A stretch of 64,000 bases of DNA from Bacillota bacterium. GTDB lineage: Bacteria; Bacillota; SHA-98; Ch115. Positions within the stretch are counted from its first letter, which is position 1, and each line of letters starts with the position of its first letter. The stretch spans positions 1-64,000 of the forward strand of contig JABLXA010000007.1 in NCBI GenBank assembly GCA_013178415.1. The letters run 5' to 3'. Made by a program: the position numbers and the translations under genes. Positions 18,054 through 61,839 of this stretch are shown in pieces. The notes beneath the pieces are model-generated. The model was not told where the DNA came from. It searched no databases and worked only from the letters and a program-made list of their open reading frames with translations.

Positions 18054-18413
18054 ATGCCCAGGGTCAAGGGCGGAATTGTCACACGACGAAGGCACAAGAA
18101 GATCCTCAAGATGGCCAAGGGTTTCACCGGAGCCAGGAGTAAGATATTCAGAAGGGCCAATGAAGCCATTCTTAAGTCGCTAGCTTATGCATATCGGGAT
18201 AGACGCAATAGAAAGCGCGAAATCAGAAGTCTCTGGATTGCCCGAATTAATGCCGCTGCTAGGGCAAATGGCATCTCTTACAGCAGGCTCATGGACGGGC
18301 TCAAGAAGGCAGGGGTGGAAATCAATAGAAAGATGATAGCCGATATGGCTGTTAATGATGCTGCCGGCTTTGAGGAGCTGGTCCGGGTTGCAAGGGAGTC
18401 AACGGTCAGATAG
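18054..18413 (+). CDS. rplT: 50S ribosomal protein L20
   Basis: 119 aa. Begins [19 protein letters not shown] and contains [21 protein letters not shown], typical of L20. It binds 23S rRNA early in 50S assembly and in Firmicutes represses the infC operon through the leader. ATG 18054 gives the family N-terminus, with GGGGAGATGATGG before it. Confidence 0.95.
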
Positions 18414-19257
18414 AGAACCTATAAGCTCTCCTCATAATCCCAAGATCAAGCTTGTCCGGCGCCTCCTCGAAAACAGGGGCTTCAGATATGAGTATGGGGC
18501 ATATGTCATAGAGGGCGCGCGGCTTGTGGATGAGGCTATAGCTGCGTCTATTGATCTTGAATTTGTCCTATTTGCTCTGGATTTTGAGGAAAGGGAGCCG
18601 GGCCGGAGGCTCCTTCAAAAGGTACGGGATAGCGGTGTGCCTCTGATCCCGGTAGCGCAAGGAATTCTAAGCCGTCTCGCCGACACTGTCACATCACAGG
18701 GGATACTAGCGGTTGCTAGAATCACCATGCAGGATGCTGAAACCCTCATAGGGTGTTCTATCGGCGAATTGCCGCTGATCCTGGTCTGTGACGAAATAAA
18801 GGACCCAGGTAATCTGGGTACGATCTTGAGAAGTGCGTGGGGATTTGGCGTGTCCCTTGTGGTGCTGCCGGAGGGTTGTGTCGATCTCTACAATCCAAAG
18901 GTTGTCCGGTCGGCCATGGGGGCCATTTTTCATGTCCCCGTTGCTATTTTTGAGAAATCTACCATTGAAGCGATAAGATGGCTCAGGGCTCACGGTATAG
19001 CCATCCTGGCATCGAGCCCCCATGCCAGGCGATATTGCCATCAATATGATTTCGTGCGTCCTGTCGCGATTGTGTTAGGAAACGAGGCCTGGGGAATCTC
19101 CCAGGAAATAGCAGAGGCTTCCGACGACATCGTCGCGATCCCTATGCCGGGCGGCAGCGAATCATTGAATGTAGCTGTGGCTACCTCGATAGTTCTCTAT
19201 GAGGCCGCGAAACAGCGTCTTGTAAGGGGCGAGAGGCTGTGCTATAATTCAGTTTGA
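18388..19257 (+). CDS. TrmH/SpoU-family RNA 2'-O-methyltransferase
   Basis: SPOUT-fold methyltransferase (about 289 aa) for rRNA or tRNA. The N-terminal substrate-binding domain ([27 protein letters not shown]) is followed by the knotted SAM domain: [45 protein letters not shown] and [20 protein letters not shown]. The start is uncertain; TTG 18388, with GAGGAG upstream, overlaps the rplT 3' end by 26 bp and suggests translational coupling. A gene of this family commonly lies between rplT and pheS in Clostridia. The methylated site cannot be inferred. Confidence 0.88.
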
Positions 19258-19297
19258 CAGGGGCGGCCGTATCACCAGTAAAGGGGTGTTGGTCCCT

Positions 19298-19387
19298 ATG
19301 TTTACAGCAGATTTTTTCTGGAGAATCTTCGAGGTGACCGGATCGATAAGGGCATATCTCATATACCGGCGTCTCAGAACGCAGTAG
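19298..19387 (+). CDS. YqzL-like microprotein, 29 aa, in the pheST leader
   Basis: ATG 19298 with AAAGGGGTG nine bases upstream opens a 29-codon frame. The core FWRIFEVTGSIRAYL matches the pattern of YqzL-family small proteins of spore formers (FxWxxFxxTGxIxxYL). Four of the first eleven residues are Phe and the ORF lies upstream of a strong terminator before pheS, so it could also act as a Phe-sensing leader peptide. Both roles are possible. The promoter is not evident; it may be read from trmH. Confidence 0.65.
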   Translation: MFTADFFWRIFEVTGSIRAYLIYRRLRTQ

Positions 19388-19429
19388 AAGATATGGTTTA
19401 GAATGCGTGCTGGCCCGCGACGGGCCCAG

Positions 19430-19470
19430 GGTCACAGCCTCGTCCCTTGACGTCCGGTTGTGACCTTTTT
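19430..19470 (+). terminator. Intrinsic terminator/attenuator upstream of pheS
   Basis: GGTCACA (19430-19436) pairs with TGTGACC (19459-19465), followed by TTTTT at 19466-19470. A small GGCCC/GGGCC hairpin lies just before. GTGACC at 19334-19339, inside the 29-codon ORF, can pair with GGTCAC of the terminator and could serve as an antiterminator. No T-box motif is present. Confidence 0.7.
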
Positions 19471-19535
19471 AGTATGATTGGGGTTTGTCGCGATGTTTAC
19501 ATGTCGTTTGATATTCATGCAGGAGGTTTTCCAGA

Positions 19536-20555
19536 ATGCAACAGAAGGTAGCTGAGATCAAGGATAGGATGATCCGTGACATAGAAGCTGCTGGTTCGGC
19601 ATCCCACTTAGAGGAGGTTAGACGCTCATATCTCGGTAAGAAGGGAATTATAACTCAGCTACTAAGAGGCCTGGGTCAGATCGACCCCGGCGAGAGACCT
19701 TTGGTGGGGCGCCTTGTCAATGAGCTCAAGGATCTATGTGAGGCCGAGCTCGCCAAACGTGAGCAAGAGATCAAGTCGCGGGAGGCGCAAGAGGCCCTTA
19801 AGAAGGAAACCCTTGACATATCTATGCCCGGTAGACGGGTCTGGGTTGGAAGGAAGCACCCACTTACCAGAGGCTTCGATGAACTCGCCAGGATCTTCAG
19901 CAGAATGGGATTTGAGGTTGTCAAAGGACCAGAAGTAGAGCTAGACTATTATAATTTTGAGGCGTTGAATACCCCGCCTGATCACCCTTCCCGTGACATC
20001 CAGGATACATTTTACGTGTCCCCGAAGGTCGTTCTCAGGACCCATACCTCACCAGTCCAAATCAGAACCATGGAGTCTCGAAAGCCTCCGATCCGTGTCA
20101 TCGTTCCGGGCAGGGCGTACAGGGCCGATGCCACCGATGCTTCTCATTCGCCGGTTTTTCACCAACTTGAGGGATTGGCCGTTGATCGTGGCATAAAGTT
20201 TTCGGATCTCCGTGGCACACTTGCCGCCTGGGCGGTGGAGTTTTTCGGCCCCGAGACTCGTACGCGCTTCCGGCCGCATTTCTTCCCATTTACCGAGCCA
20301 AGCGCGGAGGTGGATGTAACATGTGTAATGTGCGGCGGTTCTGGTTGCCGGCTCTGTAAGGGAAGCGGATGGTTGGAAGTAATGGGGGCAGGCATGGTGC
20401 ACCCAAAGGTCCTTGAAAACGTTGGATATGACCCGGGAGAGGTCAGCGGATTTGCTTTTGGCATGGGAGTAGATCGTCTTGTGATGCTGAAATATGGGAT
20501 CAGCGATATTCGTTCTCTTCTTGAAAACGATATGCGCTTCTTGCAGAGTTTTTAA
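19536..20555 (+). CDS. pheS: Phenylalanyl-tRNA synthetase alpha subunit
   Basis: Catalytic class II subunit (339 aa) of the alpha2beta2 enzyme. An N-terminal coiled-coil arm (about 1-90) precedes HPLTRGFDELARIFSRMGFEVV, then DTFYV, LRTHTSPVQIR, the motif-2 region PGRAYRADATDASHSPVFHQLEG, and motif 3 GFAFGMGVDRLVMLKYGI. The loop with CVMCGGSGCRLCKGSGWLE contains four Cys. ATG 19536 has AGGAGG nine bases upstream. It is followed 34 bp later by pheT. Confidence 0.96.
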   Translation: MQQKVAEIKDRMIRDIEAAGSASHLEEVRRSYLGKKGIITQLLRGLGQIDPGERPLVGRLVNELKDLCEAELAKREQEIKSREAQEALKKETLDISMPGRRVWVGRKHPLTRGFDELARIFSRMGFEVVKGPEVELDYYNFEALNTPPDHPSRDIQDTFYVSPKVVLRTHTSPVQIRTMESRKPPIRVIVPGRAYRADATDASHSPVFHQLEGLAVDRGIKFSDLRGTLAAWAVEFFGPETRTRFRPHFFPFTEPSAEVDVTCVMCGGSGCRLCKGSGWLEVMGAGMVHPKVLENVGYDPGEVSGFAFGMGVDRLVMLKYGISDIRSLLENDMRFLQSF

Positions 20556-20589: not shown

Positions 20590-22659
20590 ATGCGGGTTCC
20601 CCATGATTGGCTGATGGAATATGTTGAGTGTGACAGGGATCCTGACGAAATCGCAGAGCTCATGACCATGACTGGCACCAAGGTGGAATCCCTTGAGCGC
20701 GATGACTCGGGCAATATCGTATATGATCTTGAGATAACGCCTAACAGGCCTGATTGTCTGTCAGTCATAGGGGTTGCACGCGAAGTTGCAGCCGGGCTTG
20801 CGAAACCACTCAAGGTCGAGATTCCTGAGGTCGCTGGCAAGGGTGATAGCGTCGAGGATTACATTTCTGTAGAGATCCAGGATCCCGATTTGGCGCTGCG
20901 CTACATAGCAAGGATAATAAGAAATGTAAAGATCGGACCATCTCCGCTATGGCTTCAGCGTCGTCTCGAGGCATGTGGAATCCGACCCATATGCAATGCG
21001 GTCGATGTGACCAACTATGTCATGTTGGCCTGTGGTCAGCCGCTCCATGCTTTTGATTACAACATGGTGAAGGGTCGCAAGATCATAGTGAGGCGGGCGA
21101 GGCCCGGGGAAAGCATTGTCACCCTTGACGGTGAGACCAGGGAATTAAATGGAGAGAATCTTGTAATAGCTGATGCTGAAAGGCCGATAGCCTTGGCAGG
21201 GATAATAGGCGGGATGGATTCTGAGATCACCGATGATACATCTATCATTCTCCTAGAATCTGCTAATTTCCTTGGGCGCAACATATACAGGACATCCAAA
21301 AAGATGAAGCTCCGTACTGAAGCTTCGCTGAGATTTGACAAGGGACTTGATCCTGAACTCGCGATGATGGCTCAGAATATGGCGTGCGAGCTCTTCGAGA
21401 AATTGGGAGTTGGGGAGGTGGCTCGGGGCCTGGTGGATGTATATCCAGCGCCTGAGAAGAAGAGATTCTTCTCTCTCAGCGTTGATCGCGTCAACCACCT
21501 CCTGGGGACCCAGCTAGCCTCCAAAGAGATGATAGATATCTTATCAAGACTCGAGATACCTGCATCCGAATCCCGGTCAGGAAGTATCGAGATACAGATT
21601 CCTAGCTTCAGGCGCGACCTGGCGATAGAGGCAGATTTCGTGGAAGAGATTGCGCGTATCTATGGATATGAGCGCTTTCCTCTCACCATGCTGTCTGGAT
21701 CGATTCCCGAGAGGATCAGGGGATTCAAGCAAGATCCCGAGGATATCTCTAGAGAGATCCTGTTAAGGCTGGGGCTGACCGAAGCCGTCACGTCGAGCCT
21801 GGTAGGCCAGTGGGCCCTTGACTTGATTCGCCTGCCTGAAAATCATCCGCTGAGGGAAGGAGTTAGGCTGGAGAACCCACTCGTGGAAGAACAGAGCATG
21901 CTCAGAACGACGTTGCTTCCCAATGTGATCGCGGTCTTGAAGGGCAATGCGGCCAAGGACGTATCAGATGTGCGTCTGTTTGAGCATGGCAAAGTTTATC
22001 TTCCTGAAGAAGGAAAGACATTGCCAAAAGAGAAGAGGTCTGTGGCTGGGGGCATAATGGGACTTGTAAGCCCGCCAACGTGGGGCGTTTCCGAACGTGA
22101 TTTTGATTTCTATGATCTCAAGGGGATAGTTGAAGAGTACCTTGATGAGATGGGGGTAGAGGGATACTCCTTTGAGAGGACTCAGCATCCGGCGCTTCAT
22201 CCCGGCAGGACTGCAGCTCTCATGATCGGTGGGAAATCAGTGGGAGTATTCGGGGAATTGCACCCTCAGATCCGCGAGGAATGCCATCTCCCCCATCGAG
22301 CATATGTCTTTGAGTTCGATTTTGACCTGATAGCTCAGTCCATTGTAGCCAGGGTCACAGCCAGGGAGGTCTCCAAGTTCCCTGAGGTGAGCAGGGATAT
22401 TGCCTTCATCGTGAAGGAAGATGTGCCATACGCGCGTATTGACAATATAATTAGAGAGGCCGCCACGGATTTATTGGAGGATCTCAGGCTCTTCGATGTC
22501 TATACAGGGGCGCAGATCCCCAAGGGATATCGGAGCCTTGCCATCAGGATGGTCTTAAGGGCCAAAGATAGAACGCTCACAGATGAAGAGGCTAATGAGA
22601 TTCGTGCAATGGTATCAAAGAGGCTTCAGGGGGAATGTGGGGCAGAAATAAGGGCATGA
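20590..22659 (+). CDS. pheT: Phenylalanyl-tRNA synthetase beta subunit without EMAP/OB domain
   Basis: Structural and editing subunit (689 aa). After MRVPHDWLMEYVECD and TMTGTKVESLERDD the protein passes directly into YDLEITPNRPDCLSVIGVAREVAAG. The usual inserted tRNA-binding OB-fold of about 110 aa (VGxVxxxxxHPNADxLxxCxV) is missing, which explains a length of 689 rather than about 800. The B3/4 editing region (NAVDVTNYVMLACGQPLHAFD), B5, and the C-terminal ferredoxin-like anticodon-binding domain (VSKFPEVSRDIAFIVKED) are present. ATG 20590 has TTAGGAGG upstream. Confidence 0.94.
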   Translation: MRVPHDWLMEYVECDRDPDEIAELMTMTGTKVESLERDDSGNIVYDLEITPNRPDCLSVIGVAREVAAGLAKPLKVEIPEVAGKGDSVEDYISVEIQDPDLALRYIARIIRNVKIGPSPLWLQRRLEACGIRPICNAVDVTNYVMLACGQPLHAFDYNMVKGRKIIVRRARPGESIVTLDGETRELNGENLVIADAERPIALAGIIGGMDSEITDDTSIILLESANFLGRNIYRTSKKMKLRTEASLRFDKGLDPELAMMAQNMACELFEKLGVGEVARGLVDVYPAPEKKRFFSLSVDRVNHLLGTQLASKEMIDILSRLEIPASESRSGSIEIQIPSFRRDLAIEADFVEEIARIYGYERFPLTMLSGSIPERIRGFKQDPEDISREILLRLGLTEAVTSSLVGQWALDLIRLPENHPLREGVRLENPLVEEQSMLRTTLLPNVIAVLKGNAAKDVSDVRLFEHGKVYLPEEGKTLPKEKRSVAGGIMGLVSPPTWGVSERDFDFYDLKGIVEEYLDEMGVEGYSFERTQHPALHPGRTAALMIGGKSVGVFGELHPQIREECHLPHRAYVFEFDFDLIAQSIVARVTAREVSKFPEVSRDIAFIVKEDVPYARIDNIIREAATDLLEDLRLFDVYTGAQIPKGYRSLAIRMVLRAKDRTLTDEEANEIRAMVSKRLQGECGAEIRA

Positions 22660-54040: not shown

Positions 54041-54115
54041 TCCCTGGTAGCTCAACGGTAGAGCAACCGGCTGTTAACCGGTAGGTTGCAGGTTCGAGAC
54101 CTGCCCAGGGAGCCA
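54041..54115 (+). tRNA. tRNA-Asn (GTT)
   Basis: 75 nt with encoded CCA. Acceptor stem TCCCTGG/CCAGGGA and T-arm GGTTCGAGACC; the anticodon loop CTGTTAA has anticodon GTT. Confidence 0.95.
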
Positions 54116-54122
54116 TCTTTAT

Positions 54123-54197
54123 GGGCCCATAGCTCAGCGGTAGAGCGACCGGCTCATAACCGGTTGGTCCCTGGTTCGAATCCGGGTGGGCCCACCA
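54123..54197 (+). tRNA. tRNA with CAT anticodon (elongator Met or Ile2)
   Basis: 75 nt with encoded CCA. Acceptor GGGCCCA/TGGGCCC; the anticodon loop CTCATAA has anticodon CAT. The initiator features (three G-C pairs at the anticodon stem base, unpaired first base) are missing. It is either elongator Met or the lysidine-modified Ile2 tRNA, which cannot be separated here. Confidence 0.9.
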
Positions 54198-55234: not shown

Positions 55235-55590
55235 GGAACAAGCAGGCCGGATGGCCGCGGGCTGGCTGACGCCGGCCTGAGGAAAGTCCGAGCTCCACAG
55301 GGCAGGGTGCTGGGTAACACCCAGTGGGGGCGACCCCAAGGAAAGTGCAACAGAAATCAAACCGCCGGCATGAATCATCCGTCCGGTAAGGCTGAAACGG
55401 TGCGGTAAGAGCGCACCAGCAACTAGGCGACTGGTTGGCTAGGCAAACCCCACCTGGAGCAAGACCAAATAGGAGGGAGATAAAGTGGCCCGCTTTTCCC
55501 TCGGGTATGGTCGCTGGAGGCGCCGGGTGACCGGCGTCCTAGATAGATGGTCATCCTCGACAGAACTCGGCTTACAGACCTGCTTGTTCC
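55235..55590 (+). ncRNA. rnpB: RNase P RNA (class A)
   Basis: Catalytic RNA of RNase P, which trims tRNA 5' leaders. The 5' end GGAACAAGCAGG pairs with CCTGCTTGTTCC at the 3' end (P1, 12 bp). Conserved blocks include GAGGAAAGTCCGAGCTCCACA, GGGTAACACCC, GAAAGTGCAACAGAAA, the CGGTAAGGCTGAAACGGTGCGG region and ACAGAACTCGGCTTACAG near the 3' end. The length is about 356 nt, usual for class A. ORFs across it are shadows. Confidence 0.95.
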
Positions 55591-61494: not shown

Positions 61495-61800
61495 TGAATA
61501 AGGCATTGAAGGAGAGGAGTAGGGGGCATCATCCCAAGAGAGGAAGACTCACCGGGTGAAAGGTCTTCTGGATTTGATTCCCCTGAAGGTCGCTCTGGAG
61601 CCATGCTCTCGAAGGGCTGATTTCGCGAAGGACTCGGTTTTCACGCGGAGCGCGCGGGAATGGCTTTGTAGGGGCATCAGGTGCGCCTGTTATAGCGCAG
61701 AGAGCGCCCGGCGGAGAGTTCGCCGGGAAGCAAGGTGGTACCGCGGAGGAGCGAGCTCCTTTCGTCCTTTGAGTGACGGAAGGAGCTTTCGGTTTTCAGT
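61495..61800 (+). promoter_or_regulatory. T-box leader controlling valS (specifier GTC, Val)
   Basis: The invariant T-box AAGGTGGTACCGCGG lies at 61732-61746, immediately followed by a terminator (AGCTCCTTTCGTC at 61754-61766 pairing with GACGGAAGGAGCT at 61775-61787, T-rich after). The Stem I start (GGAGAGGAGTAGGG) is near 61510 and a GTC Val codon at 61589-61591 is a plausible specifier. Uncharged tRNA-Val would stabilise the antiterminator and allow valS transcription. Exact boundaries are approximate. Confidence 0.9.
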
Positions 61801-61839
61801 GGATATTTTAGGGGATATTGATATGGGGGGGTTTTGGGA

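Follow-up and report, generated by a model that had tools for sequence, protein, structure and literature searches.

The region analyzed here leads into pheST and lies in the window, by which we mean the whole 64,000-nucleotide stretch of DNA under study. It contains a methyltransferase gene, a small open reading frame (ORF) resembling YqzL, an intrinsic terminator and the two genes for phenylalanyl-tRNA synthetase, arranged as follows:

18355–19257, + strand: gene for a TrmH/SpoU-type RNA methyltransferase (PF00588), the conserved neighbor on the 5' side of the YqzL ORF in most relatives
19220–19248, + strand: promoter-like TTGTAA-17-TATAAT with TG before the –10 element, near-consensus and strong, inside the 3' end of the TrmH-like gene
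19280–19288, + strand: Shine-Dalgarno-like AAAGGGGTG for the YqzL ORF, identified from the sequence
19298–19387, + strand: YqzL-like microprotein ORF, 29 aa plus TAG (Pfam PF14006, purifying selection, predicted two-helix hairpin)
19334–19339, + strand: GTGACC, codons 13–14 of the YqzL ORF, complementary to 19430–19435 at chance level
19429–19470, + strand: intrinsic terminator, with a hairpin at 19429–19466 (–22.2 kcal/mol) and a T run at 19466–19470 (TTTTT)
19430–19435, + strand: GGTCAC in the terminator arm, identified from the sequence
19447–19475, + strand: promoter-like TTGACG-17-TAGTAT (9/12), overlapping the terminator, a candidate separate promoter of pheST
19522–19535, + strand: pheS ribosome-binding region, which could pair with ORF codons at 19317–19330
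19536–20555, + strand: pheS (PF01409, PF02912)
20590–22659, + strand: pheT (PF03483, PF17759, PF03147, PF03484)

Most relatives have a GAAAGG-type element 5' of the YqzL ORF. The terminator, which was missing from the output of a simple terminator scan, retains a T-box-type loop, TCGTCCCTTG, and relatives that bear a T-box have their terminator at the same place and with the same type of loop. Just 5' of it lies a small hairpin (19412–19426, GGCCC-GCGAC-GGGCC), of which none was seen by eye in L018, the leader of the closest relative. The preliminary description of this DNA had supposed that the organism uses a T-box elsewhere, and the genome indeed gave 12 matches to RF00230. One of them lies in the window at 61497–61772 (94.3 bits), before an ORF starting at 61834 that reads like valS (valyl-tRNA synthetase). 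The window also holds a class A RNase P RNA (55239–55590) and two tRNA genes (54041–54112 and 54123–54194).

The translation of the small ORF is MFTADFFWRIFEVTGSIRAYLIYRRLRTQ, 29 codons followed by a stop, with Phe at codons 2, 6, 7 and 11. It scored 29.6 bits against the Pfam YqzL model (cut-off 27), covering profile positions 1–22 of 44, so the initial reading of a YqzL-like ORF with four Phe within eleven codons was borne out. No NCBIfam model matched it, and it is the sole PF14006 match in its genome. Between the window and L018 there were 10 changes over 19.5 synonymous sites and 3 over 64.5 non-synonymous sites; pooled over 16 chosen pairs, pN/pS was 0.11, uncorrected for saturation. Judged by this substitution pattern, the ORF is a real microprotein gene under strong purifying selection. 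AlphaFold2 predicted helices at residues 4–18 and 21–32 of a 33-aa form (mean pLDDT 88), and the microprotein is probably folded. A structure comparison with this model returned nothing at E 0.001 or better, and a PDB sequence search with the YqzL-like peptide gave three chance matches only (E >0.6) and no solved relative. The Phe residues fall within a motif, FFWxxFExTGSIxAYLxY, found just as well in leaders with a T-box to sense tRNA-Phe. In a conserved and probably folded microprotein, the Phe residues would serve the protein and would not be there mainly as control codons. The preliminary description had also stated that YqzL is otherwise known just for being small and conserved. The open-access literature agrees with this, no paper there treating YqzL or the YqzL–pheST arrangement as far as its listing shows.

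Relatives, too, have YqzL genes before pheS together with a terminator, a point that had been proposed as a check: we read 150 distinct leaders with a YqzL ORF directly before pheS, and a terminator was present in every one of the 44 that have no T-box. An initial set of 61 genomes included 49 with YqzL matches, 58 matches in total, and all 58 places were read. For 35 of these, the stretch read included pheS downstream of the ORF and on its strand, and in eight more the ORF lay 3' of TrmH with pheS outside that stretch. One of the eight, L006 (genome G055), has TrmH, then the YqzL-like ORF, then other genes, with no pheS in the stretch read, and the link there looks broken. The other 15 matches are of a second type, with a RecO-like ORF downstream of them in 14 cases (by eye; the fifteenth is L003), and two RecO-like fragments checked against Pfam, one of them in a slightly miscopied form, matched RecO_N. 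In L035 and L058 the YqzL–recO pair is followed by a glyQ-like ORF (by eye), which places the recO-type copy, as well, near a tRNA synthetase operon.

More leaders came from searches in four families and from an even draw across the phylum. YqzL matches occurred in 162 of the 219 genomes of this phylum survey; pheS adjoined the ORF in 91 of the 93 loci read, these being the matches that were listed, strong and not already in the set, with weaker and unlisted ones left out. Among 80 loci found by starting from PheS, and hence without bias towards YqzL, the ORF lay upstream in 17, including Moorella thermoacetica, Pelotomaculum, Tepidanaerobacter and Anaerospora; the PheS-seeded Clostridium records had no YqzL ORF upstream of pheS. 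These 17 loci were kept out of the 150 leaders. The gap from the YqzL stop to pheS is 933 nt in L144, where an extra ORF, superoxide dismutase-like by eye, stands between the terminator and pheS; L145, a sister of L144, has a seemingly decayed piece of such an ORF.

The stretch separating the YqzL ORF from pheS holds a T-box in 106 of the 150 leaders (28 plus 20 more identified by cmscan, the rest by motif). The cmscan runs found a T-box in 32 of the 40 loci of the first scans and in all 20 T-box-type loci of a later scan, L270 being partial (33.9 bits); with a loose pattern, a GAA-TTY-like specifier loop was present in 92 of the 106. The T-box is absent from the other 44 leaders, the window among them, and the terminator hairpin remains. 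In the window, positions 19200–19560 gave no RF00230 match at E up to 10, and stem I, the specifier and the antiterminator (the T-box sequence) are absent. The 44 comprise the window and L018 (family f1), L020 (f2, with the same order) and leaders from 13 further families; 27 were checked by cmscan and the other 17 were judged by the missing motif only. Among the 27, a 42.5-bit remnant in L248 was the sole finding.

On a tree of 147 PheS proteins (L183, L225 and L260 were left out for their short PheS), the T-box state changes 17 times, and at least 13 of these changes are forced by branches with 95% support. Close relatives can differ: L020 has no T-box and L019, of the same genus, has one; by genome, the T-box is missing in G002 and present in the congeneric G003. 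Relative to L249, L248 lacks one block of ~100 nt, flanked by AGCT repeats, which reaches from the specifier loop up to an unchanged terminator, and in L018 AGGTGGACCGGGG adjoining CCTTCGTC resembles, by eye, a worn T-box motif. From such remnants we infer that the direction of change was loss, and that the sensing part of the T-box was lost in the window lineage and independently in many relatives.

The terminators that stay behind are well formed. In 37 of the 44 T-box-less leaders the terminator outdid 95% or more of 20 shuffles, and the median hairpin energy of the 44 was –16.8 kcal/mol, as compared to –16.5 kcal/mol in T-box leaders; the T run was slightly poorer in the absence of a T-box (5.66 vs 6.24 T in 8, p 0.004). 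In family f25, pairing is kept in 175 of 182 stem cells, with two-sided changes at four pairs (counted without L167, L170 and L171). Between the window and L018 the stem has one two-sided change (T-A to C-G), two one-sided changes and no broken pair over 31 cells; the hairpins of f46 align poorly, with 3 of 28 cells broken. The hairpin is hence no drifting leftover, its stems being kept by paired changes. In f25 (L155–L171), moreover, the 5' arm of the terminator, TGCCTTTCGTCC, is nearly invariant, L167 excepted, and the 3' arm varies via G-U pairs; several members have a short T run, and the hairpin abuts the pheS Shine-Dalgarno in many. From these sequences, the f25 hairpin appears to be something beyond a simple terminator.

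As controls we used leaders with neither YqzL nor T-box. From the 80 PheS-seeded loci we took 13 YqzL-less ones, putative Bacillota, and two of them (L088 and L114) had T-boxes, leaving 11; L065, L104, L111 and L128 (other phyla) and L067 and L137 (too little upstream sequence) were not included. A comparable terminator was found in 2 of the 11 and a third leader reached 0.1, all three being Selenomonadales records. The contrast of 37/44 with YqzL to 2/11 without it gave a Fisher p of 7e-5, uncorrected for kinship and with controls that belong to other clades.

The preliminary description had proposed that GTGACC in the ORF can pair with the terminator arm, and that pheST is thereby subject to ribosome-mediated attenuation with the ORF as a Phe sensor. 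The complementary GGTCAC is there, but the pairing is at the level of chance: a match of at least 6 nt to the arm occurred in 28.5% of synonymous ORF shuffles, and the duplex energy was reached in 39%. In L018 the arm reads GGCCAC and the ORF still has GTGACC, with no compensation. An ORF paired with its own arm no better than with the arm of another leader, and over the 44 T-box-less leaders ORF-to-arm pairing had a median p of 0.64, with one leader of the 44 below 0.05 and the whole upstream region doing no better; these tests used simple duplex energies, by which a structured antiterminator could be missed. Shuffles, swaps, L018 and the 44 leaders thus led us to reject the GTGACC–terminator pairing as a conserved switch, and the attenuation built on it, with the ORF as Phe sensor, was not supported. 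The mean number of Phe codons is 2.66 without a T-box and 3.07 with one, f25 ORFs have 1–3 Phe only, and in ~11 of 13 independent pairs the number did not differ upon T-box loss, meaning that Phe codons were mostly kept, not gained. We found no Phe-codon enrichment after T-box loss, and T-box leaders share the motif in which the Phe residues lie.

Some other pairings were considered. In f25, CCTTTC in the 5' arm is complementary to the Shine-Dalgarno GAAAGG of the ORF, above shuffles (0/200). A general switch of this kind was rejected, since T-box leaders have the same excess over shuffles and there is no covariation (matched and swapped pairs being equal). Antiterminators located in the gap, suspected by eye in L216, were not above chance over the leader set. 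In the window, 19317–19330 (codons 7–11) and 19522–19535 can form 14 pairs (–22.4 kcal/mol, synonymous-shuffle p 0.007). This pairing of the ORF with the pheS ribosome-binding site is absent in L018 and L020 and falls below 0.05 in 4 of the 44 leaders; in the window it may reflect chance or a translational link peculiar to the species. Altogether, the shuffle, swap and 44-leader pairing tests gave no sign of an ORF-borne antiterminator.

As for promoters, a site of at least 9/12 precedes the YqzL ORF in 39 of the 44 T-box-less leaders. Behind the hairpin, a site scoring at least 9 was present in only 3 of the 44, the window included. In 20 of the 44 the hairpin ends no more than 40 nt before pheS, which leaves no room for a promoter behind it, so that pheST must be read through the hairpin. 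The TTGACG-17-TAGTAT element of the window has a counterpart of 8/12 at the same place in L018; chance alone would give about two such promoter-like sites over the 2.5-kb region.

Taken together, the leader is very probably a relic T-box leader that carries a real microprotein gene. The ancestral order would have been TrmH, YqzL-like ORF, Phe T-box, terminator and pheST, widespread in the phylum; in the window lineage the tRNA-sensing and antiterminator parts would have gone, with the terminator, the ORF and its promoter staying. Most transcripts would then stop behind yqzL and a fixed fraction would continue into pheST, such partial termination yielding yqzL in excess of pheST, and in the window species the second promoter overlapping the terminator may help pheST. 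That the terminator acts in this manner, as a fixed attenuator of pheST, has in our judgment an even chance of being right. Unregulated, a strong terminator that has no antiterminator would be a strange feature to retain so often before essential genes, and its T run falls just a little short of that in T-box leaders. The extra ORF of L144 also sits awkwardly with a fixed attenuator, because pheS may have its own promoter there.

ORF, promoter and terminator have persisted jointly while the T-box state changed at least 13 times. This would be expected if translation of the leader, or the YqzL peptide itself, nascent or finished, controlled read-through, working beside the T-box and taking over where the T-box was lost; neither GTGACC pairing nor stalling at Phe would be needed. 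The scarcity of terminators in T-box-less leaders devoid of YqzL, the closeness of the hairpin to pheS in 20 of the 44 leaders and the Shine-Dalgarno complementarity of the f25 arm all fit such control. We consider it the main rival of the fixed attenuator but a less likely one, because neither the Shine-Dalgarno nor the ORF covaries with the arm, T-box leaders show the same Shine-Dalgarno excess, the number of Phe codons is unchanged on T-box loss, and the YqzL-less controls come from other clades; moreover, a fixed terminator separating yqzL from pheST would explain the same contrast. In its broader form, with YqzL as a second, T-box-independent antitermination device that mostly coexists with the T-box and has replaced it at least about a dozen times, the proposal seems to us rather improbable.

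An own promoter for pheST at 19447–19475, with a terminator that merely ends the yqzL transcript, would accord with the position shared between the window and L018 and with the additional ORF of L144. It is nonetheless an unlikely account, given the rarity of such sites behind the hairpin, their frequency by chance and the leaders in which the hairpin ends within 40 nt of pheS. Stalling of the ribosome at Phe codons, which would let GTGACC pair with the terminator arm as in a pheM-like attenuator, could draw on the four Phe in eleven codons, on the folding of the arm onto ORF codons 1–15 in the pre-terminator RNA of the window (mean probability 0.55) and on the leader peptide pheM of E. coli pheST (PMC5821084). 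Yet the complementarity is of the chance kind and lost in L018, the Phe of f25 are few, and stalling at Phe 11 would, given the footprint size, place the ribosome over GTGACC itself, all of which makes this mechanism very improbable.

Whatever the mechanism, an uncharacterized microprotein family appears tied to the expression of phenylalanyl-tRNA synthetase across a phylum. The leaders also constitute a natural deletion set, with at least 13 state changes, in which a riboswitch sensor is lost and the terminator kept before essential genes; the kept terminator is either useful as a fixed attenuator or the site of action of a second regulator so far overlooked. If YqzL antitermination were true, a conserved leader microprotein would control an aminoacyl-tRNA synthetase operon of Firmicutes, and this would be new.

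The window leader resembles a T-box leader of pheST (RF00230) in its place and in its 3' terminator with a TTCGTCC-type loop, and differs from it in having no stem I, specifier or antiterminator. With E. coli pheM and classical attenuation of pheST it has in common a Phe-containing small ORF and a terminator before pheST (PMC5821084), but its peptide is conserved over the full length and has a predicted fold, and a conserved competing structure was not found. In the synthetase operons of Firmicutes, a previous survey is reported to have found T-boxes but no attenuation of the classical kind (PMC1262725). With YqzL (PF14006), a recO-linked small protein, the window ORF shares the core WxxFxxTGxIxAYLxY and a score over the cut-off. 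The pheS-linked form is shorter (~29 aa), stands before pheS and mostly has FFW where the recO type has LW or similar. The yqzL gene of B. subtilis presumably adjoins recO, whereas the copy in the window lies between TrmH and pheS, not beside recO.
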